DNA of 64,000 nucleotides, from NCBI GenBank assembly GCA_015956445.1, contig WIUZ02000003.1, positions 1,178,001-1,242,000 on the forward strand. The letters are read 5' to 3'. The stretch is from Thelephora terrestris. Taxonomy: Eukaryota; Basidiomycota; Agaricomycetes; Thelephorales; Thelephoraceae. The notes beneath the pieces were generated by a model, which worked only from the letters and a program-made list of their open reading frames with translations, made no database searches and was not told the DNA's origin. Both the position numbers and the translations under genes were made by a program. Shown here piece after piece: positions 16,085 through 64,000 of this stretch (positions are counted from its first letter, which is position 1; every line of letters starts with the position of its first letter).

Positions 16085-16290
16085 AAGGCACCCCTGAGCC
16101 AATGGGCAAAACATGTCGAACACGTCAATCATGGCGATGTGGTGAAACTCATCGACTTTCTGGACAGGGTACGTCGCCATGTCTCATTCTTCGCCCCCCC
16201 CCCCCCCCCCCCCCCAGTTCTAACTCTCGCAGGCTCTCGATACTTTAGATCCCACCGGTTTCGGCATGGTGTGTCACTCGGTAATCGCGT
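16085..16290 (+). pseudogene. Remnant of an A-type kinase N-terminus (K-A4)
   Basis: The stretch encodes QWAKHVEHVNHGDVVKLIDF then LDR, followed by an intron that begins GTACGTCGCC and contains a run of C (about 16194-16215), and then ALDTLDPTGFG. This matches the N-terminal exon pair of K-A1 and K-A2 (VRLVEFLDR, then ALDVLDPAGPG). No A-type kinase domain follows, and B-type sequence of K-B3 starts within about 150 bp. It fits an internal deletion in an ancestral A-plus-B gene. Confidence 0.65.
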
Positions 16291-16399: not shown

Positions 16400-18080
16400 T
16401 TTCTACATGAAAATATTTGTGGGCATCACAGCTGATCATCGCTCAGTCTCCTCAACACCTCTTCATCTCGGTATCGAAACGTCGGCTTGCAAACGCTTGA
16501 TTGCCGGCTCCTCCCAAACCGAAGTCCTCCATCGGATTGAGAAAATATTTACTAGCCAAAACGAAGTCAATATGATTGGTTACCTTTGTGGGGCTGAAAC
16601 CCAGACTTTCACCGACATTATAGACGAGGTATGGCTCTACGATCGCCTGTTCCTTAGCTTCCCTCTGATCATGCTCCTCGTCTCCTTCACTGCGATTTTA
16701 TCGGTCATCATCTGTTTGCTAGGCTTTGGATAGCACCGATCTCCCACCACGGCTTCGGAGGAAGTGTTTGAGCGCCCTATGCGAGATATGCTGCCGCCAC
16801 GCTTTAGCTGGTGAGGCTTTATTTACAAGGTTGATGGAACCATCGCTCACGAGCATTTTCTCGTAGCTCAAAGATGTTGCTAACGGGTTAATATATATGC
16901 ACAGTCAGGCGATGATACACGGAGACTCGAAGGGGGTACGGCCTTTAGCGTTCGTCCCTGCCCTCCCAGCTGACTTGCATTCCTCTGCCAGGCTAATATT
17001 TTGATCGATCAAGATGGCCATGCTTGCCTGGCGGATTTCGGACTTGTCACCATCGTCTCAGACCCCGCTAACCCTACAACCTTCAGTTCCTCCGTCAAAG
17101 GTGGGACAACGCGATGGATGAGCCCGGAGCTCCTCGATCCAGATAAGTTCGGCATCGAGAATAGTCGACCTACAAAAGAGTCAGATTCCTATGCATTGGG
17201 GATGGTGATACTCGAGGTGCTTAGCGGACGTTCTCCGTTCAACCAACTCAGCGATGTTTTTGTAATGTGGGTGGTTCTTGAGGGGAAACAGCCAGAGAGG
17301 CCAACTGGGCCGGAGGGAGCATGGTTTATGGATGACTTATGGCAGATGCTGACCTTGTGCTGGAAATCTCAACGAGAGAGCCGGCCTAGTATCGCGGCCA
17401 TATTGGAGTGTCTGGAGAAGGTTTAGGGTGCTTGGAAATCGCCCCCTCTGCGAATGGACCAAGCTGTGGAGATGGAAGAAGGAGGTTGGGATCTCACGAG
17501 AGCCAGTGTATCCTTCCGTGATTCGAACCCTTCAACTGTTCACTACGGCCCCGGGGGCGTTCACGTGGATTGCTCGCTTGGTCTCTTGTCAGAATCGGCG
17601 TCGCCTGACCTTCAACCACATTTGGCTGATATCCAAGAGGAAGGCGCACCGGGAGGACTTACGACAATGAAGGCTTCGCCGAGAGTATCAAGATACCGCC
17701 CGGTCGAGCGGTCTGGTGAAATCGCCTCACACGATGAGAGTGTTCTGCGATCAACGAACAGAGATCTAGCAGACGGTACGCACTTTGATCACGATCGCGT
17801 CCTACTATGAGTTTTCCGACTTTGAGTGATTTTCGCAGGTGCAAGGTGGTTAATGGGTGCACCGGGACTGAGCCGTGGACGGTCTAACCCTTCAACACAA
17901 CCGACCTTGCCCGACGCTGATCATCGAAGTAGCACAGAGGGCGAAGAAGGTGGAGGGCTTGAAATGTCGGATGTACTACACCTACCACTGCCACAAAACG
18001 GCGGGGCCAAGCAAGAATCCAGATGGCGGGGGTGGGTTCGTAGCGTGGCCAGGGCTGCAGGAATTGATAACTGGGTTTAA
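16400..18080 (+). pseudogene. B-type TKL kinase lacking its N-lobe (K-B3)
   Basis: The first part (ETSACKRLIAGSSQTEV, FTSQNEVNMIGYLCGAETQT) aligns with the linker of K-B4. After the exon that would read RRKCLSALCEICCRHALAG, the sequence jumps to the LKDVANGLIYMHSQAMIHG segment. The glycine loop, ATP lysine and helix C present in K-B4 are therefore deleted (about 0.5 kb). The catalytic loop reads HGDSKG, not HGDLKG. The C-lobe (CLADFGLVTIVSD, TRWMSPELLDPDKFG) and the tail are otherwise open. The tail ends RWRGWVRSVARAAG, an amphipathic basic stretch, with the stop at 18080. It cannot be a working kinase, but a truncated C-lobe protein may still be made. Confidence 0.7.
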
Positions 18081-33211: not shown

Positions 33212-35247
33212 ATGACCCCCCGTCCCAGTCCCTTGGATCAACTCCTCCGCCTCGAAAGCTCTTCTTCCGAGTTTGACGATCAGGTCAGCAGCATCCTTTC
33301 AGGAGATGTGTATAGAAGATGGGTAAACCGCATCAACGGTGATGATGCTGTGAGACTCGTCGAGTTTCTGGACAGGGTACGTCGCTGTGCCCCATTCTTT
33401 GCTTCCCGCTCAAGCCCGCGTAGGCTCTTGATGTTCTTGACCCTGCTGGGCCCGGTTACCGGAGATGTTTGCGACAGCTCAGGAGCACATGCGGCGAAAG
33501 AAGGACACTACCCAAATCGTACACGTTTCCCTCTCAAGTTTTGGCCGTCGGTGATCGACCCGTCGCATCCGGAGGTTGCGGTGATGTATATCAAGGGACA
33601 CTCGACGATTTGATTGTTTGCGTCAAACGGGTTAGGGTGTACTCAATAATGGGTCCCGAGGAGGATACAAAGGTCCTTGATACTCATCTTTCTCTTGTTC
33701 CCTGTTGCTGATGAAACCCATAGATCTTCTACCAAGAGGCTATCATGTGGAAACGTTTGGAACACAAAAACATTGTTCCTCTCCTCGGCGTGACCACGAC
33801 CCCCCTGCAACTTATTTCGGAATGGATACTGGGTGGAAACGTAAGGGAGTACATCGGCAAGTACCCAAATGCAAATCGTCGGGATCTCGTGGGTATTCCT
33901 CCCTCGGTGCTCGCTTTGATTCTCACCGCCGCCCTAGGCATGTGATATAGCCGAAGGCCTCTACTATCTTCACTCCCGGAACGTAGTTCATTGTAACCTT
34001 AAAGGAGTGCGTGATTACTGAAGCCTTTTCTATCAAATCGCTCACGCGTACACAGCCGAATATCCTTGTGGGTGCCACCGGCCGCGCCCGGATCACGGAT
34101 TTCGGCCTTGCCGCGGTCACTCAGAACTTAGATTCATTGCTATACACATCGGGAGAGCCAGCCCATAATCACCAATGGACCGCACCAGAGATCCTGATCG
34201 GGGAGGGGTCATACAGCAAAGAGGCGGATGTTTTCTCATTTGCCATGGTCATGATCGAAGTGCGTCACTGATGAGCGTCCTCGTCGGGCTTCAGCTTATT
34301 CCCGACTTGGATTGTCACAGTTATTCACCGGTTCCATCCCTTTCCATGGTCGCCCGTCTTTCCAGGCTATGGTCATCATACTGAGGGGCGAGCGCCCTCC
34401 ACGACCAACCCACCAGGAGCTCACGAACGACTTGTGGAAAATAATCCAGCGATGCTGGAAACGGGACCCCCCCTTGCGTCCGGAGGTTTCAGAGATATTG
34501 AATGTTCTGGGCGTTACGTGAGTCCCCTCCCCTTTCTTGGTCCAGGTAGTAAATTGGGATCGGATCACAGCAATCCCAACGCCACAGTGAATCACGTTGG
34601 GTTGGTAGTGCACGAGAGCCAGAGAACGGAACCGTACGGGGTTTCTCGGGAACCTTCGTGTGTCCCGTCATCTTGGGCAGATCACCACCATCCTGGTGAA
34701 CAGCGAGGCAACTCCAACGGAAATGCCCTTCCGATACAAGGCCAGAATACGGAAGTATCAGAAACATCTCCTGTGCTTAAAGATCCTAGTGCACCTGGCC
34801 AGATGGAACCATCACAACCCTTCGGTCGCACTGGCGGAGCTGGAAAGCCTCGTACCAATCTACAGAATGCTGACGCGGATGCAGGTTCGGCTCTTAACTC
34901 AGGTGATGGCCACAACCGAGGCGACACAATCCGGGATTCTTCTTGTGCGTATCTCTCTCACGTCTTGCTCAGGCTCATCACATCCGGATAGGCACGGATC
35001 TGCTGGGGAAAGAATCTCGAGATCATCTCGGACAACCAGGTGCGCCTTTTTCACATTGCAATTTGTCACCGAGGAATCATGGAGTACTTATCATCTTTCT
35101 CTACTATTGTTTCTAAACAACAATGCTCGTAGATCACGTAACTACTGATCGCTCAGTCCTCTCGACAGCCCAGATACCATCACATCCAAACTTCGACGTG
35201 TCGGCTTGCAAGCGCCTAATCGCCCATGACCTCTCCCAGACTGAAGT
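33212..35247 (+). CDS. A-type TKL kinase domain, probable pseudokinase half of a tandem kinase gene (K-A2)
   Basis: Starts at ATG 33212. The order matches K-A1: helical N-terminus (SPLDQLLRLESSSSEFDDQ, VRLVEFLDR), linker CLRQLRSTCGER, glycine loop VASGGCGDVYQG, lysine in VCVKRVRVY, then VVHCNLKG, ITDFGLAAV, APEILIGEG and RCWKRDPPLRPEV. The catalytic-loop Asp (HGDLKG in relatives) is Asn here, and Gly is Cys, so phosphotransfer is unlikely. A Pro/Ser/Asn-rich tail (RTGGAGKPRT) follows. Suggested exons 34579-34955, 35009-35050 and 35134 onward link in frame to DHVTTDRSVLSTAQIPSHP and SACKRLIAHDLSQTEV, the start of B-type kinase K-B4. The frame is cut at 35247 by the Plavaka element. Splice sites in the tail are inferred from K-A1. 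Confidence 0.65.
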
Positions 35248-35317
35248 ACATCAGCAAAATCGCCTCGGCGTCTACTCGGGTACCGTTGGGTACCAGCTCT
35301 GTGAGACTGGTTTTGAG

Positions 35318-35445
35318 ACGAATGCAGGCGATCGCGTATTTTTGAGATGGATGCAAGTGATCGCGTACTTTTGAGACGAATGCAGGCGGTCGCGTACTTT
35401 TGAGACAGATGCAAGCAATCGCGTACTTTTAAGAATGCAGTTCAA
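35318..35445 (+). repeat. Left subterminal tandem repeats of the Plavaka element
   Basis: Four copies of a unit of about 29 to 31 bp (ATCGCGTACTTTTGAGA followed by a GATGCAAG-like part). The word TCGCGTAC also recurs in the right subterminal array. Such repeats are often transposase binding sites in CACTA-like elements; that is inference here. Confidence 0.7.
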
Positions 35446-35977
35446 CAACTCGTAGCGCCTCACATCTCCCGTCTCCCAAGACGACCACCATTCTTTGCGA
35501 GCGCGAAAATGTTTCGCAGTTTAATCACACCACCATCTCAAGAAAGCCGGAATCGTGTATTGTTGTGGAGATTACAAAGTCGTGACTAGATAACTAGACT
35601 ATCTCTAAAATAGAAATAATCCTCCTTGTCAAAATAATGGTTGAGGTAGAAGTCTCGAGAGGCGTCAAAACTTGTTTGGGAAGTGAGAGTGGGGTCCGCT
35701 TTCTCCCCAAACTTAGGGACCAGCTGAACAGGTTGACGAAGATGATATAAAGGGACGACAGCGCCCATTGGGGATCCATCACTCCTGCATGCTCGGCGTA
35801 GGACATACATTCCCCAAATAAGGTCGGGGGCCAACCTTTGGCCTCGAGGGAGATCAGTTTGAGGGATGATGTCAAAGCGTTCGACATAGGCGAGGTAGAG
35901 CGGCAGCTTTGTTTGGAGGTCCCAGAGGGGGTGGAAGATCGTGCGAATCTGACCTACAAAGAATCCTAGCTACGAGA

Positions 35978-38641
35978 TCAGCAGCACTCTAGCTGATTAT
36001 ACCGGGGATGCCTACTGTTTAATCCGGGGGGAGGCTGCAGCGCCCCAGCAGTGGCGTCTTGCGAAAATATCGCTGTATCGCACCGTCCGTTTGGCCAATC
36101 TTCACCTGGTGGTATGGCGAACAATTTCTGCGGAGGTGCGACACCAGGCGAAAGCTGACTGTATGTTTGGACGCGAACAGAATGCCATACCCGAACTTCT
36201 TTGAAGGGTATGGCGATGTCCCAGGCGGTGCCATGCCTTCCAGCGATTGTGCGAGTGTTCTGGTCGTGGAAGAAGTGGGAGAAGAAGTCATGCGTTGCTT
36301 GAAGGAGATCAGGGATGTCGTATGCGATGGAGACCTGCTCCAGCGTCGAGCGCGAAAGGTGTGCACGGTTATTCATGTGGAACACGGTTGTAGGGGTGGC
36401 AAACGTTCGCGGAAAGGGGGGGAGGTTGTGCTGGGATTGTGTGTCGGCTGCAAATGCGAAGAGATCAGTAACTGTTCTAGGTGGATCAAAAGCCTCGGCG
36501 ATATCAGGGAAGTCGGTTTTCCAGTCACTGTCGTCATCAACCGGGTTGAATACCGAATCGGGGTCGTCTACTCCATTTGCCGTGCCAGGCCCTGCAGAAA
36601 TTGCCTCTTCGAGTCTAGTCGCGAGGTCAAAGTACCGGCACTTTTCCTGACGATCGAGGTTCCGGCAGATCTGTGGGGGATAGTCGCGGCCGTTGGTGTT
36701 CTCACGGGGTATTTTGATGAAGACAATATGCAGGCGTTCCGTGGTATCGGCTGACCACTGAGGGAGAGTTCCTGACCATTGGATGCACGAAGCGATGGAT
36801 TGGAGCAGTTCGAGCTTCGGGATCTGGAAGTGATCCATAGGCCCCCCTTTGCCAACGCGGAGACCGAGGTCGATGATGACCTGCTTGTAGGTGTGGAATA
36901 GTTGTAATGCATCAGAGATGGCGTGGAGGTCGCGTTGGGTTACTTGCTGGAGTTGGGAAAGGTAGCGCAGGTCGAGGAGAGCACGAATGCAGAGGACAAA
37001 CCTCTCGTCGGTATCGGTGGGAATCAGCGTGAGGAGGTACCTTTGGATGTCCCGGTGTTCGCGGCCGGTAACTTGCTTCAGTGATGAGATTCCGGAGGAG
37101 AAGTGCCGGTAGCCGTTGCGTGACTGGATGAGTGAAAAACGGAGGTCCAGTTCGAGGTCCCCAACAGCTCGGATGACCCATTTTGCATCGTGATCCCAAA
37201 ATGACTTGTGAAGGTGATGGAGAATTTCGATGGGGAAGATTTGATGCAGGTTGGGGAGGGTTCCGTCGGGGAGGTACCAGTCGCGCCAAAATGGGAGATT
37301 GACTCCGTTCAAGCGAAACAAGGCCTTCGCGTTGCTGGTGTAAATGTGCACCTGAGATGGGTCGAACTGGGAGGCAAGGGTTTTGAGTGATGTGAGGATG
37401 CTCTCAGCGGTTCGGGGTTGATGTTGAACAGGATCGCCGAATTCCCTAAATGTAGCCATCGTTAGGTGAGACGTCTTCCCGGCGATGCCAGTGAGCGCTG
37501 TTGCTTCTGGGGTATCGACGATGTAAGCGACCAATGGTGTGAAACAGTAGCGTATGTTGCCGGCATAGTCAGAGACCCAGACCCCGTGTTGTGATGCGAT
37601 CTTGAGGGGGTGCGTGATAAAGTCGAGACACGAGTGTGCCAGCCGGTTTTCGAGAACTCCCTCGATATTTTTCTTGACGCCGACGAATTTTGGGACAGGA
37701 AACAATGCCAGTAATGAAAAGGCGTGCGAGGAGGTTGATGACCGGACGGAAGAATCAATGTTTGCGAGTGTGATAAGTAGAGGATGAGCGACACGATCTC
37801 CGGTCATGGCGCTGAGCCTGGTCTTGTCCGATGATAAGGTGACACCGAGGAGAGTAGCATGTGATGGAAGGCGGCTCTAGAACCATCTAAATGAGGCAGG
37901 CTTGCGATGAAGTACATAAAGATACGTACCTGATAGTCCCATGCCCCATCACTTGTAATCCAATCCCCATACGTACGATTACCGTATGAGTCAAAGTCTT
38001 GGCGAGGCTGGTATTGAATCTTCCCGGAAAAGAGGGGGTTCTTCATGATGAATTCGATGCAATTCATTGGGTCCCAGTAATATAGCACGAGGGGGTCCTT
38101 GGTGGCGTATCCAGGCAGCGAGACCACTGTAGACTTCCATGGCGGCCCACTTGGGAGGAGTTCGACCTTCCCCCGGAGGGTTCGCGCACAATGGAAAGAA
38201 AGACCAAGGCCGGCAATCTGGAACATAGTTAGCAATGCCATGCAGCTGGAAAAGAGAGAAAAGACGCACCAGACCGAGTGATAAGAACTCATCGATCAGC
38301 TTCATCGATACCCCGCTACGCATGAAAAACCCAGCAATCTCCCATTCACCTTTGGAAAGGAACGGGTAGTATGGATGGCTGGATCGACGGTCGGAATCTT
38401 CGTCGTTGTGAAACCAGCCCAGGAATCCTGGGCCCGAGTCGAACACATGGCCGGCGTTGGGGAAGTGGTAGGAGCGTGGGGAAGGGTGGGTTTCCGGTGG
38501 AGATTGAGGGCGAGGGGGAGACTGCTCGGGAACACGGGCAAACCAGAGGTGACAAGAGGAGAAACGGTGGTTCATGTGCTTGAGAACGGCAGAGCTGTCC
38601 TTGAAGGTAGAGTGGCAGTTGGGGCAGGCGGCAGGTGGCAT
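35978..38641 (-). CDS. Plavaka-family transposase
   Basis: Starts at ATG 38641 with a C2H2-like finger (ACPNCHSTFKDSSAVLKHMN followed by His). The family block follows: HPYYPFLSKGEWEIAGFFMR, SVSMKLIDEFLSLGL, intron, IAGLGLSFHCARTLRGKVEL, LYYWDPMNCIEFIMKNPLF, YGDWITSDGAWDYQ. After a second short intron come SRLPSHATLLGVTLSSDKT, with the presumed catalytic Asp in SSDKT, GDRVAHPLLITLANI, FVGVKKNIEGVLENRLAH and CFTPLVAYIVDTPEATALTG. Later blocks are FWDHDAKWVIRAVG, DLRYLSQLQQVT and WSADTTERLHI. The remaining C-terminal part is Asp/Pro-rich and ends at 35978. Introns near 38268-38218 and 37932-37876 are inferred from the frame changes. The gene looks whole and should mobilise the surrounding element. 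Confidence 0.85.
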
Positions 38642-38726
38642 GATCGTTAAATTTTGAAACGTCGAAGGCCTGAAAGCTCAAGTGGTGGGTGTTTCCGGCA
38701 ACTTCCACGACCACTTACGCTCTCCT

Positions 38727-39262
38727 ATGTCACAACCCACTGAACAAGAGCCCCTCACCCGCTTTACTGAGCTCATGAATGAGCTATTACCAGTAAGCCG
38801 TCATTCATTTCTATCCATTCATAGTTTATTTATTTTATTTTGTCAGAAGTACGAGGGTTCTGGGGATCCAGAACCCCCCACTGAGGCTCGTCAGAAGTTA
38901 CTGCGTGACATCCGCGCTGCTCGCGACATCTACGCACAAGACAGGACCAGGGCCGAAAACCAACTTCTGGCTGCTCAACAACTCGTCAATGCCTTAGCAA
39001 GACAACTTCGACTTGCCAATGAAAAGTTGATTTCTCTTGAAGACCTGATTGCGGAGGTGAGGGTCAGGATGCGAACGCGTGGTCTTTCAACACTCCCCCA
39101 ACGGTCACCCTCCAACCGTTTCGCCGTTGTCGGCAACAAGGGTCAAATCGACTGCTCACCAACGTGTAAGTCGCACGTTTCTGAAACCATTGATGAATGG
39201 AATCTGACATATTACCTCACAGTGTTGCAGCCTGTGTTGCAGCCTGGGGAACAGGGTCATTA
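38727..39262 (+). CDS. Small coiled-coil protein carried by the Plavaka element
   Basis: Divergent from the transposase; the start codons are about 85 bp apart. Starts MSQPTEQEPLTRFTELMNEL. One intron follows LLP (GTAAGCC to TGTCAG), then KYEGSGDPEPPTEARQKLL and a long charged helix (RDIYAQDRTRAENQLLAAQQ, NALARQLRLANEKLISLEDL) with heptad-like spacing. A second intron comes after SPT, and the last exon ends LLQPVLQPGEQGH. About 140 aa. No known domain is recognised. Its position inside the element and the shared promoter region suggest a role in transposition or its control. Confidence 0.55.
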
Positions 39263-39396
39263 GGTGTAATACGGCGTGCTGCTTCCACCCTTCCAATTAC
39301 CTACAATGATGTATTTTCGTATATAAGCCCTACCGTATACATCTCTTCCCCCTTTGCCACTCTCGTCCGTCCTCTTCATTTTTTATTATCTAAGTG

Positions 39397-41463
39397 ATGG
39401 CAGGTCCTGGGAAGGCGCGCGGTGGAAGAGCAGCCAGCAACTCTGCTCGTTCCACCAGACCCCAACCCACTCCCGTCACTTCTGGTCACCCACCTGCTTC
39501 CAACCACAATTCCTCGCGCACCACTCGTGCCACCACTGCTCGCAAGAGACAGGGCGCCGACGACGAAGAGCCTCTCCCTCCAAAACCAGCTAAAAACGCC
39601 CGAAAAGTCCGTGATTTTTTTATGTGCGCTAGAGGCCTGCCTAATCGCTCGGCCAGAATGCAGAAACTGTTGATACCGCTCCTTTGATTTCTAATGCGGC
39701 TCCCAGCCATAATACGACCAATTCCCCTGCTACATATCTCTCTTCTGGATTGTCTTCAGGTCACGGCGCTTTCCCCGCTCACACTAATGTCCATATCGAT
39801 TCGTCTAGACTTCTTGCTCAACCTGGTTTCCCGGCGTCGCATCATCTTCAAGTTCCTGGCCAATACCCTCAGCACATGCTTGGTCCATCCCCTGCAACGT
39901 CGCACCACCTTTCTGGTCTATCCCCGGTAATGTCGCACCACCATCCTGGTCCGCAGTTTGCAACTTCATATCACCTTCCTGGCCAGTCTCACGCCCAATA
40001 TGCCTATCCTCAACACTGGTCTGGCGCACAATCCGGTCCCCACCCCACGGTCCTGTCCCCTCATCCCCCTCAGCCTCCGCCATACCAATCTCCACCACCC
40101 GACGTCGTCATCATCGATAACGAGTTTTCCGACGGCGAAGATCCCGAAGTGGAGTTTGCAGAGCGTTTTTGCGGCGAAGTGGAAGAGTCCACTGGTGTCC
40201 AGGTAAGTAGAATCCACACATGAGAGCACCCTGCTTACACCCCCTGCAGTTCCTTCCTTCGCAGGATGTCCTCCACGACCACTGGCAGAGGAACGGTCAG
40301 CCAGTCCCTCCTCGATTGGCCCCTCGCAACGTCCACGCACAATTCAACGAACCGGCCCGCGGTCACCAGCCAGCCCCTCCAGCCCTAGTACCACCCCCTT
40401 CCCAGCCAGCCCCTGTCCAGCAGATGCCTGTGGCGCCAATCATCCCAGCCGTTGTTGAGGAACCCTACCAAGAACCACGTCCCCTGACCCTCCCGACACC
40501 CAACCCTGATGATCCTCCCCTTCCGCGCAGCTGGTACCCGAAGCCTTGGCAACAGCTCATCGACCACGCTCAAGGTTACACGCTCCATTACATGGCCTTC
40601 TTCGATCCCTTCCCCAACGGCACGTCCAGCCATATCCGGGCCCGCGAGGATATCACCATGGCATTCAGCACGTACAACATGGTCTACGATGATCTTCTCG
40701 ATGTGACCTCCTGTAAGTTGTACCCCCACAACTGCCAAGATCTCCTTCTCACCCCATTCTAGTCAACGAGCACCGGCAGAATTTTGCAACCCTGGTACGC
40801 CCACCCCCTCCACACTCACCCCCTCACTCACCATCCCTATTAGGCCATGAAGGGCGCACGGAGCCATCGAGGAAGATACCGAACAGCTGTTCTGAAGGCG
40901 CTCTATGATACGAAAGAATTCGGCCTTACCCAAAAGACCCCCGCTGCGAGTATCGTGAATCAAGTCGAATCACTATTGCACGACAACTGCTACCTCGATG
41001 TCACATTTCCTGTGAGTTTGGGCAACCGTTTCGTTGCCGTGTCAATCTAAGACATTTACAGAGCCCCTGTTCGCGTACACCTGGCTCTTCAATGTACAAG
41101 TCCCCCATCTTGAAGAAGGCGATCCATATCCTCTACACCACTGAACTGTGGCTCGTGGACGTTGAAGATTACGATGGAGCCTTCAGGGCCTTCCCTCCAG
41201 TCGGGTTTGTTGCCTTTGCAGCCTGCGCAGTAAGTGAAACTGCTTTCTTGTCGTGCACGACTGATCCCCATGATTTCTAGTTCCGCAATATACTCAACTC
41301 TCTTGTTTCTGGTATGGAGGAGAACATCCCGTTCAGCGAAGCCGGTTATTCACCCACCTACGAATTCCTTGTTGACCTGGTCAAATTTGATTTGGACGAG
41401 CCCGACACCGGGTTGCTCGTTGGCTACAACCTGCAGGCTATCATAGCGGGTGTTACCATCTGA
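39397..41463 (+). CDS. Plavaka cargo protein, DUF6532-like C-terminal domain
   Basis: Multi-exon gene from ATG 39397. The N-terminus is basic and disordered (MAGPGKARGGRAASNSARST). The middle is His/Pro/Ser-rich with a loose repeat of about 13 residues (GPSPATSHHLSGLSP, GPQFATSYHLPG) and an acidic motif (EFSDGEDPEVEF). The globular C-terminal part runs over exons that I join as REDITMAFSTYNMVYDDLL, AMKGARSHRGRYRTAVLKAL, SPILKKAIHILYTTELW, FPPVGFVAFAACA, FRNILNSLVSGMEENIPFSE and YSPTYEFLVDLVKFDLD. This pattern resembles the DUF6532 proteins common in basidiomycetes. The function is unknown. The assignment is from memory of the family pattern. Confidence 0.6.
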
Positions 41464-41689
41464 TCTTCCGTGCCCCGTCCATCCTGTGTTTCGTGCTTGC
41501 TTGTCCTCCATCCGTCCCGTGTTCCGTTCTTGCTTGTCCCCCGTCTCGTTTTCGTTTGCCCTGAGGGCCCTTTTGTCACGAGTATTACTTTGTTTACCAA
41601 GTTATACTTGTTTTTGATCAATACACTGGTTTGTTCCCCAAGTACTGGTAGTGATATGATCTCGTGGGCACCCTCGAAGATCACAAGCG

Positions 41690-41925
41690 AGCGACCATTG
41701 TGCCGCCATCATATGTCGCGTACCAGAACTACCATCACGTGCCACATCAACCATCGCGTACCGCTTCGACCATCGCGTACCACATCGACCATCGCGTACC
41801 ACATCGACCATCGTGTACCGCCGTCAACCACTGCGTACCACCGTCAACCGCCGCATACCACCGGGTACCATGAAGGTACCCGAATCAGCCGGGTACCCCC
41901 GGGTGTCATCGCGTACTGACTGACG
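41690..41925 (+). repeat. Right subterminal tandem repeats of the Plavaka element
   Basis: A degenerate array of a 19- to 20-bp unit (CATCGCGTACCACATCGAC type) from about 41735 to 41830, then shorter CGCATACCACC and GGGTACC words. TCGCGTAC is shared with the left subterminal array. Confidence 0.65.
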
Positions 41926-41941
41926 ATTTTGCTGATGTAGT

Positions 41942-43815
41942 CCCTCTAATGGAGGAAATATTCACTAGTCAAGGCGAAATAAGTATGGCCAGTCACCTCT
42001 GCGGAGACGATGCTCAGACCTTTATCGATGTCATAGACAAGGCATGGCTCTTCCCTCAGTCATCTCTCAGATTCACTCTGACCATGCCTTTCGTTTCGTT
42101 CGTTTTTATCGGTTTATCGGTTCCTATCTGTTGGCTAGGCCTTGGATCGCGCTGATATACCGCCACGGCTTCGGAGGAAGTGTTTGAGAGCCTTGTGCAA
42201 GATGTGTAGCCACCACGCTTTGCTTCCAAGATCGTTGAAAATTCCACTTTGTTACGATCGATCAGGTACCCCGTTATATAACGGTGGGTATGCTGATGTC
42301 TGGAAGGCCGAACACGAAGGCCGCCAGGTTGCAGTCAAAGCCTTGAGGGTTTACTTGAAGGACGACTTTGAGAAGATAACCAGTGTGCGTTCCCGAGGCT
42401 TGACATGAAGTGCGCACCAGGCGGCTGATTCATCCCATCCCAGGGGTTTTGCAAGGAGGTTGTAGTTTGGAAGCGTCTTCTCCATCCAAATGTGCTCCCA
42501 TTGTTAGGGGTGACAATGGTTAACACCCCCGAGTCTCCTCTTTTCGCAATGGCATCGAAGTGGATGGAGAATGGGAACATCAATGACTTCATCAGGCGCC
42601 GTCAAGATGTGAATCGTTTTGAGCTTGTGGGGTTTGATCTCAAACGTCGATGGCAAATTATCACTCATGATCATTTTGTTGTAGCTCAAAGATGTTGCTA
42701 AGGGGTTGATATATATGCACAGTCAAGATGTGATACACGGAGACCTGAAGGGGGTATGATTACGAATACTCTTTGCTGCTCTGCCATCTGATTTGCTCGT
42801 TTGCAAGGCTAATATCGTGATTGATCAATATTTCCACGCTTGCCTGGCAGATTTCGGACTCGCTACCATTGCCTCAGATTCTGCAAACCCTACAACATTC
42901 GGTTCTTCGGTAAAAGGTGGGACCACGCGATGGATGAGCCCAGAGCTCCTCGATCCAGAACCGTTCAACATCGAGTGTAGTCGACCGACAAAAGAATCAG
43001 ATTCCTATGCGTTAGGGATGGTGATACTTGAGGTGCTCAGCGGTCATCCTCCGTTCAAGCAATGTAAGGACACTGTCGTAATGCTGAGGGTGCTTGAAGG
43101 AGGGAAGCCAGAAAGGCCCGAAGGGCCGGAGGGGGAGTGGTTCACAGATGACTTATGGGAGGTGTTGGCCTTGTGTTGGGAATCTCAACGAGAAAGCCGG
43201 CCTAGTATTGCGGCCATATTGGAGTTTCTGGAGAAGATTTCGGGTGCCTGGAATCCACCCCCTCCGCGAATGGACCAAGCTGTGGAGATGGAAGAAGAGG
43301 ATTGGGATCTCACGAGAGCCAGTGTATCCTTCCGTGATTCGGACCCTACAACTGTTCGCTACGGCCCCGGGGGCGTTCATGCGGATTTCTCCCTCAGTCT
43401 CTTGTCAGAATCGGCGTTGCCTGACCTTCAACCACATTTGGCCGATTACCCAGAGGAAGGCGCGCCAGGAGGACTTACGGCAAAGAAGGCTTCACCGACA
43501 GTATTGAGGCACTGCCCAGGCGAGCAGTCTAGTGAAATCGCCTTACGCGATGAGAGTGTTCCGCGATTAACGAACGGAGATCCAACAGATGGTACGCACT
43601 TTGATCACGATCGCGTCCTGTGAGTTTTCCGACTTAAAGTAATTTTCACAGGTGCAGGGTGGTTAGTGGATGCACCGGGACTGAGGCGTGGACGGTCTAA
43701 CCCTTCGACACAACCGCAAAACATCGGCGGGGCCAATAACAAATCCGGATGGTGGGGGTGGGTCTGTAGCGTGACCAGGGCTGTCATTCATCGCTGTTTC
43801 AATCCCTGTTCCTAA
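41942..43815 (+). CDS. B-type TKL kinase domain, second half of the tandem kinase gene (K-B4)
   Basis: Continues the frame cut by Plavaka: PLMEEIFTSQGEISMASHLC, GDDAQTFIDVIDK, intron, RRKCLRALCKMCSHHALLP. The kinase domain then reads YNGGYADVWKAEHEGRQVAV, with the ATP lysine in AVKALRVY, FCKEVVVWKRLLHPN, WMENGNINDFI, VIHGDLKG, ANIVIDQ, LADFGLATIASD, TRWMSPELLDPEPF and RPSIAAILEFLEK. All catalytic motifs are present. The tail (about 140 aa) is acidic, then a last exon starting with GAGWLVDAPGLRRGRSNP ends GWWGWVCSVTRAVIHRC, a Trp-rich basic segment, with the stop at 43815. The last intron is phase 1. With K-A2 it would form a pseudokinase-kinase protein if Plavaka were absent; at present the gene is interrupted. 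Confidence 0.7.
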
Positions 43816-46942: not shown

Positions 46943-48126
46943 GTGACGTCTCTCAATAACCCTCTTGCCGATGAAACCAGGAGCACCCGAAAGTTGGTGG
47001 GGTCGACCCACAAACCTGCGCTGAGCGACACGACTCCTCTGAATAGCCCTTACGAGAGGCCAGCGTACGAGAGTGCAAGGCAATCCCATTTCAATTCCTT
47101 GGAACGACTCCTTTGCCTCGAGGAATATTCTTCCGAGTTTAATGATCAAGTCAGCAACATCCTTCGTGGACAGGAGTATCAGAAATGGGCGGAAAATATC
47201 AACGAAGCTGACGCTGTGCAACTCATCGAGTTTCTGGACAGGGTATGTCACGTGCCTCATCTTCTCTCCCTAGTACTCAAGCCCCCGTAGGCTCTTGATA
47301 TTCTTGACCCTACTGGCCCCGGTTTCTGGAGATGTATGCGAGAGCTCAGGCACACATGCGGTGCAAGAATGATACTACCCAAATGTAAGCGAAGCGTCAC
47401 GCGCCACCCCGGGAGTGGTAACCGGTCCGTAGTAGTTTAGCCAGAAAGATTATCACCATTTTGTTTGAGACAACATGTCGCGTAACTATACCCAAAAGGT
47501 CTTGTATTATATAATCTAGCAGGCAGTATATAAGATGTCTAGGTAGATTAGAAACGAGGACGCTTTCGACCAGTTCTGACCCGTGTGTTTACCTCTTAGA
47601 CTCGACTCGACTCGCGTGATTCGGAACTCCCGAAATCACTCCCGAGTCTGAGTCACAGCTAGAGCCCAAGGGTTCACACCAAGGAGTCGTACACGCGCGT
47701 TTCCCTCTCAGCTTTTGGCCGTCGGTGGTCACCCCGTTGCATCAGGAGGTCCTGGTGATGTGTATGCTGGGATACTCTATGGTTCGAGGGTTTGCGTCAA
47801 ACGAGTCAGCCGGGTGCACTCAGCGGATGGTCCTGAGGAAGCTACAACGGTCCTTGATACTCATCGTCTTCTTGTCTCCTGTTGCTGACGAGACCCACAG
47901 ACCCTCTACCGAGAGGTCATCACCTGGAAACGCTTGGGGCACAAAAATATTGTTCAACGGCGGCGCCGCACGACAGACCTTGCGCGACGCCGATCATCGA
48001 AGTACACACAAAGGCCCGTGGAGGGCATGAAATATTGGGTGTGCACCCACAACCGCAAAACACCGGCGGGGCCAAGCAAGAAACCAGAATGCGGGGGTGG
48101 GTTCGTCGCGCGGGCAGGGCTGTAGG
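46943..48126 (+). pseudogene. Chimeric remnant: A-type kinase N-terminus fused to a B-type tail (K-A3)
   Basis: The first exon encodes an extended N-terminus, then RLLCLEEYSSEFNDQVSN, QKWAENINEADAVQLIEFLD, an intron, and LDILDPTGPGF with a linker like K-A2. A solo-LTR-like insert lies at 47384-47678. After it, the glycine-loop exon can be followed by similarity (47700-47870), then TWKRLGHKNIV at about 47925-47956. There the sequence switches abruptly to B-type tail (GACCTTGCGCGACGCCGATC, as at about 17905), continuing to GGAKQETRMRGWVRRAGRAV. The A-type C-lobe and the whole B-type kinase are missing. It cannot encode a kinase. Confidence 0.7.
47384..47678. mobile_element. Candidate solo LTR (fossil), 295 bp
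   Basis: The insert absent from the paralogous exons of K-A2 and K-A1 starts TGTAAGCGAAGCG and ends GGTTCACA. It contains a TATA-like GTATATAAG. CCAAA before and CCAAG after could be a 5-bp target duplication with one mismatch. The family (Copia or Gypsy) cannot be told. No internal retrotransposon sequence is present. It is treated as an old remnant. Confidence 0.45.
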
Positions 48127-51365: not shown

Positions 51366-51663
51366 TATTTTAATTCCGTAGGTACGACGTCCACAACATG
51401 TACTCTGGCCACCACGTTTATCTGTCTACAGTATATATTGTTGTTTCTACTATTTCGTGCGAACTATGTCCCGATTTGAGTTATCCGTCGAAACAATAAT
51501 ATGTATGAGTCAAGTCACACCCGGTCACCGTCATGTGATACGGACGACATCATTGACCCCCCTACCTTATCTTTTCGAGCTCTCAGGCTACTATAAGCGC
51601 ACGAAGGACGCTGGCTCTCAAACGCCGATCCGGCGCCTCTGCGACCTCCCCTCGACCATCATC

Positions 51664-52518
51664 ATGAACTCGGACGAGATGTTTAACTGGCCCGATGCGG
51701 ACGTTGTTCTATGCGCGACCCACGGCAAAGACAGTCGCGAGTTTCGAGTCCACAAATCGTTCCTATCCTTCTCATCCCCCATCTTCAAGGACATGTTCAC
51801 GATTCCACAGCCTCCGTCGACCGACTCAAACCAGGTCGACGTTGTCGCCGTCGCGGATCCACCACAAGCGTTGGAGCTCATCCTACGATTCATATATCCC
51901 TCCCGGGCTTCACCCGTGGTTGACGACTTGACCGTCTTGTCGGAGGCTATGATCCTCGCCGATAAGTACGATATCGACGTAGCGCGGGCGCGATTGCGGT
52001 CGTTGCTCGCGGGGTTCGTTGACACTGAGCCCCTCAGAGTGTATGCGATCGCTTATCGGTTTGGATTGAAGGATGTGATGAAGACCGCTTCATGGCACAC
52101 GACGTCGATCCACTTTCCCAGCATCAGTGATCTGCCTGAGGAGTTCAAGCTAATCCCTGCCACGGAGTACCATCGCCTCATCCTCCTCCACTCTAGGTAT
52201 CGCGAAAAGGTCGATTCCATCGCCCGGCGCACTCACTTTCCGTGGCCCCTCGCCCACACTGAGGACTCGTCGCCCGCTACGGAACAAGAGATGAAGAAGA
52301 TGAGAAAAGAGGTGAGGGAGATGAAGAAGGAGAAGGCGACGGTTGGGAAAGAGCGTTTCTGGGATAGGATCAAGGAGAGCACGATGTTGAACCACGAGTC
52401 GCTCGTCCTTGCGTTGAAAGCGGACAAGGCGATTGCCGAAGCAGCCTCCGAGGCCCAAATTCAATCTTACGTCTCCTCGATTCTTAGCGAGGCCAATGCC
52501 TTGAAACTGACAGTTTAG
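51664..52518 (+). CDS. BTB/POZ-domain protein, copy 3 (284 aa)
   Basis: Single exon; the ATG at 51664 aligns with the starts of the two BTB genes near 12.4 and 14.1 kb. Motifs: MFNWPDADVVLCATHGKDSR, EFRVHKSFLSFSSPIFKDMF, ALELILRFIYPSR, AMILADKYDIDVARARLRS, PLRVYAIAYRFGLKD and ATEYHRLILLHSRYREKVD. A Lys/Glu-rich helix (KKMRKEVREMKKEKATVGKE) is inserted before the C-terminal end SYVSSILSEANALKLTV. It is about 37 kb from its relatives, in the same orientation, so it moved by segmental duplication or is a relic of a larger array. No fused domain. Partner unknown. Confidence 0.85.
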   Translation: MNSDEMFNWPDADVVLCATHGKDSREFRVHKSFLSFSSPIFKDMFTIPQPPSTDSNQVDVVAVADPPQALELILRFIYPSRASPVVDDLTVLSEAMILADKYDIDVARARLRSLLAGFVDTEPLRVYAIAYRFGLKDVMKTASWHTTSIHFPSISDLPEEFKLIPATEYHRLILLHSRYREKVDSIARRTHFPWPLAHTEDSSPATEQEMKKMRKEVREMKKEKATVGKERFWDRIKESTMLNHESLVLALKADKAIAEAASEAQIQSYVSSILSEANALKLTV

Positions 52519-58386: not shown

Positions 58387-60418
58387 ATGGCGCCTCGGGA
58401 ATCTTTTGACCCCCAACACGCGTCTTCCAGTATTATTCGCAGGGGCAATGATTGTATTAGGAAATTTTCGGTCCCCAGCAGTGATAGGAAAAGGGCACAA
58501 CAGGTACCACATCCCGCAACCTCCTGCTGCTGAAGTCACTATTTACTGACAAGTTTTAAAGCTGTTCTCCAAGGGGGCTGGGGAGTGGAGTCGCCTCAAA
58601 CACCCAAACGTTGTCCCTTTGAAAAGTGTCACATTGGCCCCCCTTCAACTTGTCTCGCAATCGATGCCGGGTGGCGAGTTGCGGGAGTATATCGAGGAGA
58701 ATCCGAGCGCGAATCTCATCAGCCTAGTAGGTTGGTTCCTATTCTATTCCGTGCAACCCCTCACCCCCTCTCCAGTTGCTAGGCGTCGCAAACGGTCTTG
58801 CGTATCTCCACTCAAAAAGAGTCATACATGGGGATTTAAAAGGGGTACGCATCATGTTTAATCCTGTACGACCTTTTTGACCGCAATGAGCTCAGCCAAA
58901 TATCCTCATCGACGAATCTGGAAATGCGCGAATCACGAACTTTGGCCTCAGGGACATCATCTGGGGTCCCAGCCCAGATGCGGGCGCTTTCAACGAGCAT
59001 GATCGCACCCCGCGATGGACTGCGCCTGAACTTCTTCGGGGTGGTTTCATTGCCGATGAAAAATCTGATACGTTTTCATTTGGGATGATTGTATTTGAGG
59101 TATGGAGGTGATCGATCCTCTAGATATTAACCACCTTACCTGTTAACTCAGGTTTTCTCTGGGAATGTTCCGTTCCATGAGATTCAAGTTTCTGAGGTCC
59201 CGAGAGCCATTATGAACAAAGAACGCCCGAAACGACCCACTCATCTCGGTTTGACTGAGTCTTTGTGGGGCCTGGTACAGAAATGTTGGAATGATGCAGC
59301 GGAGGGTCGTCCGGAGATGAAAGATGTGATCGAGTTGTTGGAGCAAACGTTGGTTTATTTGCTACCTATGAGACAAGCTTCTTGCTTACACTCCTACAAA
59401 GTGCCAGAGAATACATCACGTCCTCGGACAAACCACTGGAAGAGTCGCGCGTGGCAACAGAAGGTCCCTCAATGATAGCTATTCCGGGCAAACAAACCAC
59501 CCGCGAGGCACCCAGATTAGATGTTGATGGACGTGGAGTAATCCCCTCGGACACAGAGTCACCTTTACCAGGACCGGCGTTGCCCCCACAGGAAGCAGAA
59601 GGGGAGGGCCCTCCCATCACCAATGAGCCTAACATTGTCGGTAAGGTAATTGTAAATAAACCTAGACAGCCCACTATCAACAGTACGTTCCTTCCTCACT
59701 CACCGGTCAGGGGCTAATTTATAGACGTAGACGAATATTTACCTAAAAATGATTCCGAATTCGGGGACGAGGAAGGACACAAACGCCGCACACCTCCGAA
59801 GGAGATGAGGGAGGATAAGGATCGCAAGGATCTCAGGGTAGGGTTTGAACTTTTTTTCCGACAATATGTTTTCTTACTTTATCATAGCGTGAAAAGAGCC
59901 GGAAGGACCTTGAGCATGAGAGGGGGAAAAAGCGCGCTGAAGAGGTTGCGAAGGAGGTGAAGGCTACCCTCGAGGAGAGACCCCCTGGCCCTTCTGGAAG
60001 TACAACCGTAGTGCCTTCTCAGATCAATGCCCCTTCACCCTCCCGCCCAGCAACTCCGAGGCCATCTACGCAGCCCCCATCAAAAATAATAAGGGGAACG
60101 GTTCCTCCTATCCTGAAGGATATTGGTGAGGGAATGGTAAATAAACCTGTGCCGAGACACCCGCCCACCGTTAGCAGTACGTTCCCCCACGTCCCATATC
60201 CGTTGGTTGAAAACTCGTTTATTCATAGACAGTGATTCTCCTGCGAGCGGCTCGGAGGTTATAGCTGAGGTGGACAAAGGTCACCAGGAGCTTGGGGTAG
60301 GATTCGAATTTTTCCCTTCCGGCAGGATGATCTTCTCACTCTACCATAGCGTAAAAAGAGCCAGAAGGACTCTGAACACTGGAGGAAACCGAAGCACGTT
60401 GAGGCGTTCGGAAAGGAA
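58387..60418 (+). CDS. C-type TKL pseudokinase with duplicated linker exons (K-C1)
   Basis: Starts at ATG 58387. Compared with K-C2, most of the N-terminal helical region and the glycine loop are missing. Where K-C2 has VCIKKL, it reads DCIRKF (ATP lysine to Arg). Then come LFSKGAGEWSRLKHPNVVPL, MPGGELREYIEENPSANLI, VIHGDLKG, PNILIDESGNARITNFGL (DFG changed to NFG), RWTAPELLRGG, NVPFHEIQ and KCWNDAAEGRPEM. It is a likely pseudokinase. Near 59350-59390 one base is missing relative to K-C2, shifting the frame. The disordered linker is then open: two similar exon pairs (about 59640-59960 and 60130-60425) encode EEGHKRRTPPKEMREDKDRK, REKSRKDLEHERGKKRAEE, and RKKSQKDSEHWRKPK. The last of these runs in frame into K-B5. 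Confidence 0.55.
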
Positions 60419-60425
60419 GTGAAGG
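59640..60425 (+). repeat. Tandem duplication of linker exons between K-C1 and K-B5
   Basis: Copies at about 59640-59960 and 60130-60425, about 490 bp apart, share GTAAATAAACCT, AGTACGTTCC, TTCATAG or TTTATAGAC, AGGTAGGGTTTGAA or GGGTAGGATTCGAA, and TACCATAGCGTAAAAAGAGCC. Exon and intron borders are kept in both copies. Confidence 0.65.
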
Positions 60426-62102
60426 TCACAGCTCCCGGATTCTCATTGCATCGTGATAAACAGACGATCGCTCCTCCTGCCACCCCAGTATCAACATCAT
60501 ATCAGTGGCAAGATCTCTTGAACTCTCCCACGAATTTTGACGCTGTGTTGTTGGGTGTGTTACAATCTGCGACAGAGATAAAGAGGATCAAGGGGTTAAA
60601 CGGAGAGGAGCTTCAACATGTGGTCGACGTTCTTGGTCAAGTCAGGGCACTCTTTAACTCGGAAACCACGGTTCTCCATTCGCTAACAACCCGTCCTCCA
60701 GTATTTTGGAAACAGCGGTGGGATGAATGAGCTCCTGAAGAGATGCTTCAATTCCCTTTGTGATATTTGTGCCACCCGCGGGGTGTTACCAAAAATATGC
60801 AGGCTGGATCGAGGTAAACTACAATGGCCAGAAAAGCAGACCTATACTGGGGGGTTTGGCATTGTATGGGAAGGGACATACCGTGGAAAGGCCGTCGCAA
60901 TCAAGCAGTTGAATGTCACTCATTCGACATCAAAAAAGGTTCGTTGCTCAATTGAAATGATGTGTAAAGGTGTCTGATATTCATGTCAGATATTCTGCTG
61001 TGAGGTAATCATGTGGAAACGGCTTTCAGACCAGAACGCTCTACCTCTCCTCGGCGCATACATACATGACTCGGAGCTGGTCATGGTCTCTCCGTGGATG
61101 AAAAATGGGAATATCAGGCAGTACCTCCACAACAACAAACGGGCAAATAAGCTCTCTTTGGTAGGCCACTCCTGGATTTTGCCTCGCCCTTGTCGTTTAT
61201 TGACTTTCCTGATAGCTGGTGGACGTTGCACGCGGCGTTAAATACTTGCACGATATCCACGTCGTTCACGGAGATCTAAAAGGGGTACAAAACACCTTCC
61301 GATTGGAGATAGTGGCACTGAAAATTGGTTTTCTTCAGGCGAACATCCTTGTGAAAGATGATGGGAGCGCTTGCCTCGCGGACTTCGGCCTTACATCAAT
61401 CGCCCTAGACCTAGAAACCACAGATATTGCCTCTACTTCGGGGGGGAAGGCTGATGGGACGTATCGATGGATGAGTCCCGAGCTTTTCAACCCGGAGCTG
61501 TTCGGTGGACGCAAAGTTAAGCTGACCAAAATGTCTGACTGCTATGCCCTTGGAATGGTTATCTATGAGGTGCGTGGCTCATGTGTGGGGGATAGTTGCC
61601 TCCCTCGGTCTCACCGATGTGGGGTAGGTTATCTCGGGAAAGGTCCCCTTCGAAGAGCTCAAAGTGTCGTTAACGGTGCCGGCCAGCGTACTCAAGGGAG
61701 AACGCCCCATCGTTCCAGAAAATATTGTTCCGAGGATGGTGGGACTTTGGGAGCTCGCACGGGAATGTTGGAGTCACCACCCTCAGGATCGACCGTCCTC
61801 GACAACCATTCTGGAGAGACTCAACGCCTTCGAACATGGACCACCGCAGGTGGGAGGTGAGCACCCTGGTCTTTGTTCTCGACCCTCGTGTTGAGCACCA
61901 AAGCGATGACCGCCCAGCTGCCCCGCAATTACAACCATCAAACATCCCTCCGACCGTACATGAGATGCAAGAAGTGATACACGAAACGCCAAATGAGCCT
62001 CTGAAAGACCCTCCAAAAAAGCCATGGTGGAAACGCTGGTGCTGGTGGTGGTGCTGCTGCCGATCCGACCAAACGGATGATGACCAGAATGTCCCACGAT
62101 GA
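60419..62102 (+). CDS. B-type TKL kinase with Trp/Cys-rich C-terminus (K-B5)
   Basis: The frame is open upstream into the K-C1 linker, so this may not be a separate gene. Motifs: LNGEELQHVVDVLGQ, intron, YFGNSGGMNELLKRCFNSL, glycine loop YTGGFGIVWEGTY, KAVAIKQLN with the ATP lysine, EVIMWKRLSDQNALPLLGAY, WMKNGNIRQYL, VVHGDLKG, ANILVKD, LADFGLTSIALD, YRWMSPELFNPELF, SDCYALGMVIYE and ECWSHHPQDRPSS. All catalytic motifs are intact. A last intron (about 61851-61890, Q then HQSDDRPAAPQLQ) leads to the end PPKKPWWKRWCWWWCCCRSD and an acidic last dozen residues. The Trp/Cys/Lys cluster looks like a palmitoylated membrane anchor. Confidence 0.7.
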
Positions 62103-62539: not shown

Positions 62540-64000
62540 ATGGTTGTTCAGACTACGCCGCTGGAACGTTTTCACACCCTGGATAGAACATTCGGTGGGG
62601 AGTTGGACAGCCTCCTTCACGATGAGACATATATAGGCCAACTTATGGGACTTCAAGGAAACGAGCTGATTCAGGTTTTAGACTACCTCAGCGATGTACG
62701 TTCATCCCCTACCAGATAAATGTAGTTAATCGCCCCCATAGACCACCCGCCGTCTCATCCGCGCTGGCGGGTCACCTAGGAAGTGCCTCGATGTTTTGCG
62801 GAAGATATCTAGGACCCGAAAAGTTGTCCCCTCCACCTACGAAGTATCTGGGACACTTTTAGCTCTGCCCAACAGCTCAATTGCGTATGGGGGATCTGGT
62901 AACTTTCTACGGGGAAATCTCACTCGCAAGGAAGATGTTTGCATCAAAAAACTTCGGCTATACGCCAATGACAACCGAGAAAAGATCAACGAGGTTCGCT
63001 TGCGCGGCCTCTCTGCTAAAGTCCCTGTTTCCTGACAAATTTTGAAGGTGTTCCGCAAAGGAGCGATCGTGTGGAAACATCTGGATCACCCGAATATTGT
63101 TCCCTTCAAGGGTGTCACGTTGGATCCTCCTCAACTTGTCTCGGAGTGGATGCCCGGTGGCGAGTTGCGGGAGTACATCAAGAAGAATCCGAGCACGAAT
63201 CTCATCAACCTGGTTGGCCCGTTCATATTATATGCCGTGCAACCCCTTACCCCTTCCTCAGTTGCTCGGCGTCGCCGGCGGCCTTGCATATCTCCACTCA
63301 CACGACATCATACATGGAGACCTGAAAGGGGTGCGTGTCACGGTTAATCCTGCCTGACATTTTTGATCAGGGTGAACGCAGTCAAATATCTTCGTCGACG
63401 GGTCTGGAAATGCACGAATCACGGACTTCGGTCTTACAAACATCATCCGGGATCCCAGCTCAGCTGCGAGCAGTTCCGATGAGTATGGTTTCACTCCCCG
63501 ATGGACTGCACCGGAAATTTTCCGGGGTGAGGCCACTGCCAATAAGAAATCTGATATATTCTCGTTTGGGATGGTTGCGTTTGAGGTACGAGGACGATCG
63601 GCCCTCGAGATTTTAGTCGCCTCACCTGTTAACTCAGGCTTTCTCTGGGACGGTTCCGTTCCCTGAGATTAGATCTCCTGCGGTTCCGGTGGCCATTATG
63701 AAGGGAAACCGCCCAAACCGACCTGTTCATCCCGGTTTGACTGAGCCTTTGTGGAGACTGGTCCAGGAATGCTGGAAGGATACGGCGGGGGATCGTCCGG
63801 AGATTGCAGATGTAATTAAGGAGTTAAAGCGAACGTCAGTTTATTCTTTGGTCTTTGAGACAAACGCCTTGCTTACACTCTTCCGAAATGTCAGGGAACG
63901 TATTCCGCCCACGAAAAAAACGTCAGAAGATTCACGCGTGGCAATACAAGGACGCTCAACGAAAGGTGCTCCAGGCAAACAACCCATTCCTGAACCACCC
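62540..64000 (+). CDS. C-type TKL kinase, runs off the window (K-C2)
   Basis: Starts at ATG 62540. N-terminal helical region TTPLERFHTLDRTFGGELDS, ELIQVLDYLSD, intron, then TRRLIRAGGSPRKCLDVLRK. Kinase motifs: glycine loop YGGSGNFLRG, VCIKKLRLY with the ATP lysine, FRKGAIVWKHLDHPNIVPFK, MPGGELREYIKKN, IIHGDLKG, SNIFVDGSGNARITDFGL, PRWTAPEIFRGE, SDIFSFGMVAFE, TVPFPEI and ECWKDTAGDRPEI. Catalytic residues are present, so unlike K-C1 it may be active. The tail (TNALLTLFRNVRERI, GAPGKQPIPEP) is open to the end of the window and matches the start of the linker in K-C1. Confidence 0.75.

Follow-up and report, generated by a model that had tools for sequence, protein, structure and literature searches.

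The 64,000-nucleotide (nt) stretch of the Thelephora terrestris genome considered here (the window; C23:1178001-1242000) holds a cluster of TKL kinase genes in which A- or C-type kinase domains precede B-type domains on the same strand. A custom spliced protein-to-DNA aligner located ten TKL pieces in it, namely A1 (minus strand), B1, B2, B3, A2, B4, A3, C1, B5 and C2; a further remnant, A4, was recognised by eye. The module consists of a helical N-terminal part of ~90 amino acids (aa) followed by a PF07714 kinase, and the helical part received no Pfam name among the five proteins scanned. Because 10 of these 11 pieces share the plus strand of the cluster, finding a B piece behind an A piece says little when taken alone; stronger evidence for tandem kinases comes from gene junctions outside the window. 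The genome comprises 40.6 Mb in 60 contigs, and all counts given below come from it. Features are collected in Table 1.

Table 1. Kinase modules, linkers and inserted elements of the window, and multi-kinase gene models elsewhere in the genome
Feature	Position	Strand	Basis or remark
K-A4: A-type N-terminal module only, no kinase	16100..16280	+	by eye
K-B3: pseudogene, HGDSKG	16458..17423	+	most of N-lobe missing
K-A2: N-terminal helical module and TKL kinase, 6 exons	33212..34515	+	spliced alignment; PF07714 E 2.3e-45
A2 C-terminal tail exons (borders inferred)	34572..35040	+	last exon abuts former intron 1 of B4
Intron resembling intron 1 of three standalone B genes (C23:443k, 868k, 864k)	35041..35170	+	alignment
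B4 second exon, 5' part (QIPSHPNFDVSACKRLIAHDLSQTE), severed by transposon	35171..35247	+	
Target-site duplication AGT, left copy	35245..35247	.	
Plavaka-type transposon, 15-nt perfect terminal inverted repeat	35248..41938	-	transposase frame 35978-37876 (-)
Target-site duplication AGT, right copy	41939..41941	.	
K-B4 remainder: N-terminal module, kinase, C-tail	41942..43623	+	PF07714 E 1.1e-36; gene end in initial annotation, 43815
K-A3: A-type N-module and N-lobe only	47099..47954	+	interrupted at ~47383-47680
Remnant resembling B-type C-terminal tail, joined to A3 at 47955	47955..48125	+	by eye
K-C1: short N-terminus, C-lobe with HGDLKG and NFG	58387..59340	+	spliced alignment
C1-B5 linker	59349..60640	+	first intron 59349-59407; the exons behind it include two charged sets that are alike
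K-B5: canonical TKL kinase (VAIK, HGDLKG, DFG)	60557..61822	+	
K-C2: TKL kinase	62540..63826	+	K72, D166, D184 retained; alpha-C Glu replaced (FRKGAIVW)
Open frame from C2 C-lobe through short linker to B5-like kinase past window end	63617..64000, on to equivalent of 64210	+	L085
A-B models	C23:741k, 775k, 1025k, 1139k; C1:4206k		
A-B-B models	C23:885k, 901k; C19:94k		
B-B models	C6:170k; C7:236k; C7:240k		

The first pair, A2/B4, is a two-kinase frame that existed before a Plavaka transposon split B4. The catalytic Asp of A2 is gone (HCNLKG), its VCVKR and DFG motifs being retained, and the B4 kinase is canonical (VAVK, HGDLKG, DFG). The short first exon with its ATG that would be expected from standalone B genes is absent from B4, and an A2 tail exon occupies its place. 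Similar tails end A1 and the A gene at C23:1173k, behind neither of which a B module was found. The inserted element has a transposase match to PF18759 (E 1.2e-55), terminal inverted repeats and a target-site duplication, as befits a Plavaka (CACTA-type) transposon; a 3-bp duplication is the rule for this type. Short degenerate repeats were seen by eye just within both of its ends (35280-35420 and 41700-41900). When the flanks are joined without Plavaka, the frame stays open from A2 into B4, as the initial annotation had it. In the present-day sequence, the B4 frame from 35174 runs into a stop at 35372.

Two further pairs combine C-type with B-type domains. C1 starts with MAPRESFDPQHASSSIIRRGNDCIRKF, is devoid of the helical module and of the Gly loop (CIRKF), and reads NFG. 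The last exon of its linker (60350-60640) contains no Met and enters B5 in frame, in agreement with the initial annotation, so described there as a linker running straight into the B domain. The pair C2/B5-like had been missed because the window ends within it. A search with B5 placed a B5-like kinase, canonical over the part read, behind C2 at C23:1242127-1243100 and on (L085 spans C23:1242001-1243100). The C2 C-lobe exon and the B5-like N-terminal exon form one open frame, which removal of a 60-nt intron (63835-63894) would leave intact. The matching position in C1 holds a 59-nt intron, and similar tails follow (EYITSSDKPLEESRVATEG vs ERIPPTKKTSEDSRVAIQG); the pairs C1/B5 and C2/B5-like therefore have the look of a C-B fusion that was duplicated, the linker being longer in C1/B5. 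By eye, the 5' flanks of C1 (58228-58390) and C2 (62395-62540) are also alike, which suggests duplicated promoters.

The remaining two pairs in the window, A4/B3 and A3 with its B-type tail, are debris and not tandem kinases. The A4 piece runs into the 5' region of a B gene whose start reads GTG vs ATG in the C23:443k relative (by eye); B3 has an in-frame stop just past the kinase. Thus, of the four A/C-B tandem copies originally proposed, A2/B4 (once Plavaka is set aside) and C1/B5 stand as same-strand pairs with an open frame, and the other two were dropped. The residue losses described for the first domains of A2 and C1 were all seen. The accompanying statement that the B domain is canonical holds for B4 and B5 and fails for B3, most of whose N-lobe is missing, and for A3, whose partner is only tail-like.

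A whole-genome search with the PF07714 profile gave at least 171 exon-level matches. Two of the matched regions, C39:28096-28896 and C58:1781332-1782132, have the same match scores on two contigs and probably represent one assembly piece present twice, by duplication or as an alternative haplotype. The N-terminal exon of B, used as a query across the genome, matched 65 times; by coordinates, 15 of these matches lie close behind a kinase C-lobe, six as B-B and nine as A-B arrangements including one on C16. The gene model used for scoring was trained on homology-derived introns; introns in the kinase models measured 48-73 nt (5th to 95th percentile), and only lengths of 43-90 nt were admitted.

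Eleven gene models with two or three kinase domains were obtained outside the window (Table 1). Their stitched proteins are 714-1089 aa long, none of the 11 has an internal stop, and seven have an in-frame ATG in the first exon. All six B-B junctions lie in one open exon, with gaps of 12-237 nt, as exemplified by ...RPTVRTVLDCLERVSVATTVDCQQRLIDRSFSQGELPYLLETV... at C23:903.4-903.6k. Each of the eight A-B junctions (gaps of 59-92 nt) can be bridged by a single frame-keeping intron just past the A kinase, which joins the A C-terminus to a B start of the IPAWK-, VPAWK-, RPTWR- or DPSWK-like type. These introns are the best of up to three options; the best-ranked are 56-67 nt long in seven genes, and in the eighth (885k) direct reading is also open, the intron being used in the stitched model. 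For the second domain, no upstream in-frame Met is present in five of the eight A-B genes. PF07714 stretches numbered 3, 2, 2, 1 and 1 in the five proteins scanned, all with whole-protein scores above the curated cut-off of 23.1 bits; the 885k protein has three, and the 1139k and C7:240k proteins have two apiece.

To these junctions we applied a fused-minus-split score, i.e., the gene-model score of one joined gene minus that of two separate genes. It ranged from +14.8 to +37.5 at all 14 junctions and from -6.7 to +8.3 in eight controls consisting of neighbours 411-2139 nt apart. The window pairs scored +13.7 (A2/B4), +12.1 (C1/B5) and +15.0 (C2/B5-like), the C1/B5 link being open yet weaker. 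At C16:73k, an A domain is followed 89 nt on by a B exon and, after ~750 nt more, by the B kinase; with this far start the score was +3.4, and the locus is a probable tandem, kept outside the 11. Two other candidates were rejected: L047 (A then A-like, gap 367) offers no single-intron link, and L056 (A then B-like, gap 290) only poor ones. At C7:235701-243100 two B-B genes adjoin, their domains 84% and 76% identical, which looks like tandem duplication of a whole two-kinase gene. At the level of gene models, then, each of these 11 loci, and C2/B5-like as a further case, carries at least two kinase domains within a single reading frame, as is characteristic of plant tandem kinases, and a tandem kinase architecture in T. 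terrestris is supported.

The second line of evidence is the distribution of key catalytic residues. In all eight A-B genes, K72, D166 or D184 is missing from one domain of the A/B pair and from one only, so that each gene combines a kinase with a pseudokinase. Two classes can be distinguished by which partner is degenerate. In class II (775k, 885k, 901k, C19:94k and C1:4206k), the A domain has K72 replaced by R (VRIRR in four, VYVRR in one), has lost E91 and has a missing or damaged Gly loop, and B is canonical. In class I (741k, 1025k, 1139k and, in part, C16:73k), A is canonical, except that the visible part of the C16 A domain has HGRLKG, and B reads VAAQ or VSAQ and has GFD or GFN instead of DFG; E91 is lost in two of three. 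Elsewhere, the first B of C6:170k has no E91, the second B of C7:240k reads DFV, and the third domain of C19:94k reads HGN.

Loss of K72, D166 or D184 affects 9 of the 19 domains in A-B(-B) genes, none of the six in B-B genes and 1 of 32 full-length single domains, this one belonging to a standalone B gene whose motifs read VAVE and AGFSL (C23:864233-862892, minus strand). Fisher's test of A-B(-B) domains against full-length singles gives p 2.4e-4, which is not a true probability because the paralogues are related. The count leaves out domains with gaps at key residues (L033 B, L056 A and, in the window, B3 and C1), partial or fragmentary ones (C23:739k B, C23:441k B, C16 A and C16 B), the other window domains, and those scoring <490 (e.g., L036). 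Among the domains left out, C23:739k, L056 A, C16 A and C16 B are degenerate, so that 1 of 32 holds for full-length singles only.

The pseudokinase domains are under purifying selection. Ratios of nonsynonymous to synonymous substitution (dN/dS) were calculated by NG86 for 29 pairs, with dS >1 in several and undefined in two. Pseudokinase pairs gave 0.17-0.28 (n=7), near the catalytic ones; other tandem-domain pairs gave 0.19-0.49 where computable, and pairs of singles 0.16-0.37 (n=9), the value of 0.37 including the C23:864k pseudokinase.

Trees provide the third line of evidence. One clade (100/97) unites the second-position B domains of all eight A-B genes with the first B of C6:170k and with two B domains linked to a NACHT NTPase (L025 and L028). 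A second clade (100/98) contains the three third domains and the second B of C6:170k. The five class II A domains group together (100/99), as do the three class I B domains (100/100), and the B-B domains of the C7 genes are placed elsewhere. The A-B fusion likely had a single origin, likely rather than proven because the class I A domains have no resolved placement. The trees rule out A2/B4 as a member of this main A-B family: A2 groups with the standalone A gene at C23:1174k and with A1, and B4 with the standalone genes at C23:443k, 868k and 864k. Because both of its domains group with standalone genes, A2/B4 is most likely an independent, recent fusion. The trees therefore imply at least three fusion events (A-B, B-B' and the C7 B-B), with A2/B4 as a fourth and C-B as a fifth.

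We interpret these observations as repeated joining of adjacent genes from an expanded TKL family into multi-kinase genes, in which the partner domain of the A-B genes is a conserved pseudokinase acting in cis; A2/B4 and the C-B pairs would be further fusions, and the rest of the window pairs debris. We put the probability of this reading at roughly 0.8. The fusion route would most likely be splicing of the upstream gene's last exon into the second exon of B, in place of the B first exon; in B-B genes, the units would continue within one exon. Each gene would then yield a single transcript and a single protein with at least one intact catalytic domain as the predicted source of activity. In A-B proteins the presumably inactive pseudokinase would most likely regulate, scaffold or sense for the active domain in cis, and a second kinase or NACHT as partner may likewise regulate or sense. 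The family would comprise kinase-pseudokinase signalling proteins acting in cis; a receptor role is a guess.

Several points weigh against this interpretation. The evidence is the DNA of one genome, from which transcripts and proteins are deduced; gene models and scores come from custom scripts trained on the same kinase exons, and the tandem loci were picked for fetching on their tandem look. In four of the 11 models the first exon yielded no in-frame ATG, and the locus edge truncates two of those models. The second domain could have an ATG of its own in B4 (35123), in the C2 to B5-like frame (64100) and, in frame just before the domain, in three A-B genes (901k, 1025k and C19:94k). C1/B5 and A2/B4 score above the controls but below most clear fusions. 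Nor is a pseudokinase partner universal: three B-B genes show no loss of K72, D166 or D184, and C2 retains all three. Degenerate single domains do occur among the fragments left out (C23:739k, L056), and the paralogues are not independent, so that the A-B residue losses count as about two old events, one in each class.

A more specific possibility, which we regard as tentative and rather doubtful, is that these proteins are sensors resembling NLRs or plant tandem kinases, in which the degenerate partner or NACHT senses or switches and the intact kinase is the output, in self/non-self or pathogen recognition. B modules lie ~1.2-1.4 kb (by coordinates) behind a NACHT NTPase at three loci, in a genome with at least 150 NPHP3_N matches. 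At L028 plus L084 (C59:304600-302200, minus strand), an open frame upstream of B matches NPHP3_N (E 1.3e-25) and NACHT (27.3 bits; cut-off 26.7), and a putative 34-nt intron would join it in frame to the exon running into the kinase (frames by eye). In its paralogue L025 (C59:313759+) the NLR part ends in the same way and the putative intron measures 35 nt, the length difference lying inside the intron; the third pair (C59:319310-322299) is known by coordinates. The clade shared by NACHT-linked B modules and B domains of A-B genes also fits a sensor, as does the existence of plant kinase-pseudokinase resistance proteins (PMC11153570). Against it, the putative NACHT-B introns are shorter than the 48-73 nt of the kinase models, and domain-wide dN/dS gives no diversifying selection.

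Much less probable, in our view, is a compact array in which A and B are separate close genes and the open link is chance or read-through. TKL genes are indeed clustered, many A and B genes have no kinase in the upstream stretch seen, the eight control neighbours were not scored as fused, and four second domains have a possible nearby in-frame ATG. The gaps at 12 of the 14 junctions, however, measure 12-92 nt and leave scant room for a 3' end, promoter and start; the six B-B junctions and C2/B5-like are each one open frame; five of the eight A-B second domains have no in-frame Met upstream; and the intron recurs at the corresponding place in paralogues of 55-74% amino-acid identity.

Equally hard to sustain is the view that unequal crossing-over between paralogues produced fused pseudogenes whose residue losses are decay, which suits A4/B3, A3 and the transposon-broken A2/B4 but not the other 11 models, given their lack of internal stops, the low pseudokinase dN/dS, the intact partner domain in full genes, and the recurrence of K72 to R in 5/5 class II A domains and of VxAQ with GF[ND] in 3/3 full class I B domains plus the partial C16.

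The multi-kinase genes can be compared with several known systems. In JAK, a pseudokinase directly precedes the kinase, and FERM and SH2 domains are present. Class II genes share this order and class I genes reverse it; a Pfam scan of three fusion proteins at E 0.01 gave no match to FERM or SH2. Since the degenerate domain is second in three of the eight A-B genes, 'pseudokinase first', the JAK-like layout suggested by the initial annotation, is not the rule: it applies to five of the eight A-B genes, A2/B4 and C1/B5, and the B-B genes have no pseudokinase as judged by loss of K72, D166 or D184.

Domain order can also differ among plant tandem kinase proteins. Plant tandem kinases have two kinase domains per chain, one a pseudokinase, arisen via duplication or fusion (PMC11153570), and the fungal gene models resemble them in this. 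The plant examples include Pm57 and Lr9, for which a Ka/Ks of 0.77 is reported (PMC11153570), vs a pseudokinase dN/dS of 0.17-0.28 here. Unlike the plant proteins, the fungal ones are built of TKL modules, each with its own helical N-part, and have up to three domains; an immune role belongs to the plant proteins and would be a guess for these.

Among fungi, FslK/TKL kinases are expanded in Agaricomycetes, and 16 of 241 FslK members have additional domains (Zhao et al. 2014, PMC3937382); the FslK lineage is recognised by its phylogenetic position next to animal TKs. The present genes resemble FslK in forming large lineage-specific families, mostly without other domains, and the terms 'two kinase', 'tandem' and 'pseudokinase' are absent from the main text of that paper. 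A GERP-type motif is visible in several of our kinase domains, by eye only. Combinations of NACHT NTPase and kinase occur in fungal NLRs, with kinase among the N-terminal effector annotations (PMC4986451, PMC9815663 and PMC10197012); in contrast to those, the kinase here stands behind NACHT, at the three loci seen. Among the papers listed by literature searches that covered few subscription journals, none described tandem TKL kinase/pseudokinase proteins from a fungus, consistent with the initial annotation.

Animals use kinase-pseudokinase fusions as allosteric switches, and in plants such fusions are known as resistance genes. A large fungal family that has been active recently, has pseudokinases in either position and includes triple-kinase forms as well as NACHT-kinase relatives would add a third independent set in which to study pair formation and domain death, and would suggest what the kinase expansions of mushroom-forming fungi, so far unexplained, are for. 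It is conceivable, though we consider it unlikely, that this is a fungal receptor family and the counterpart of plant tandem kinase receptors, in which a TKL output module, through repeated exon-1 replacement, has come to follow interchangeable partners, be it a pseudokinase, a further kinase or a NACHT NTPase, the 'dead' partner having arisen independently on either side.

Other features of the window include open frames at 20037-22751 (+) and 49348-51162 (+) with weak, sub-cut-off transposase matches (tnp2-like PF02992; DDE_3 PF13358), and a BTB/POZ domain protein at 51382-52518 (+; E 5.8e-11).

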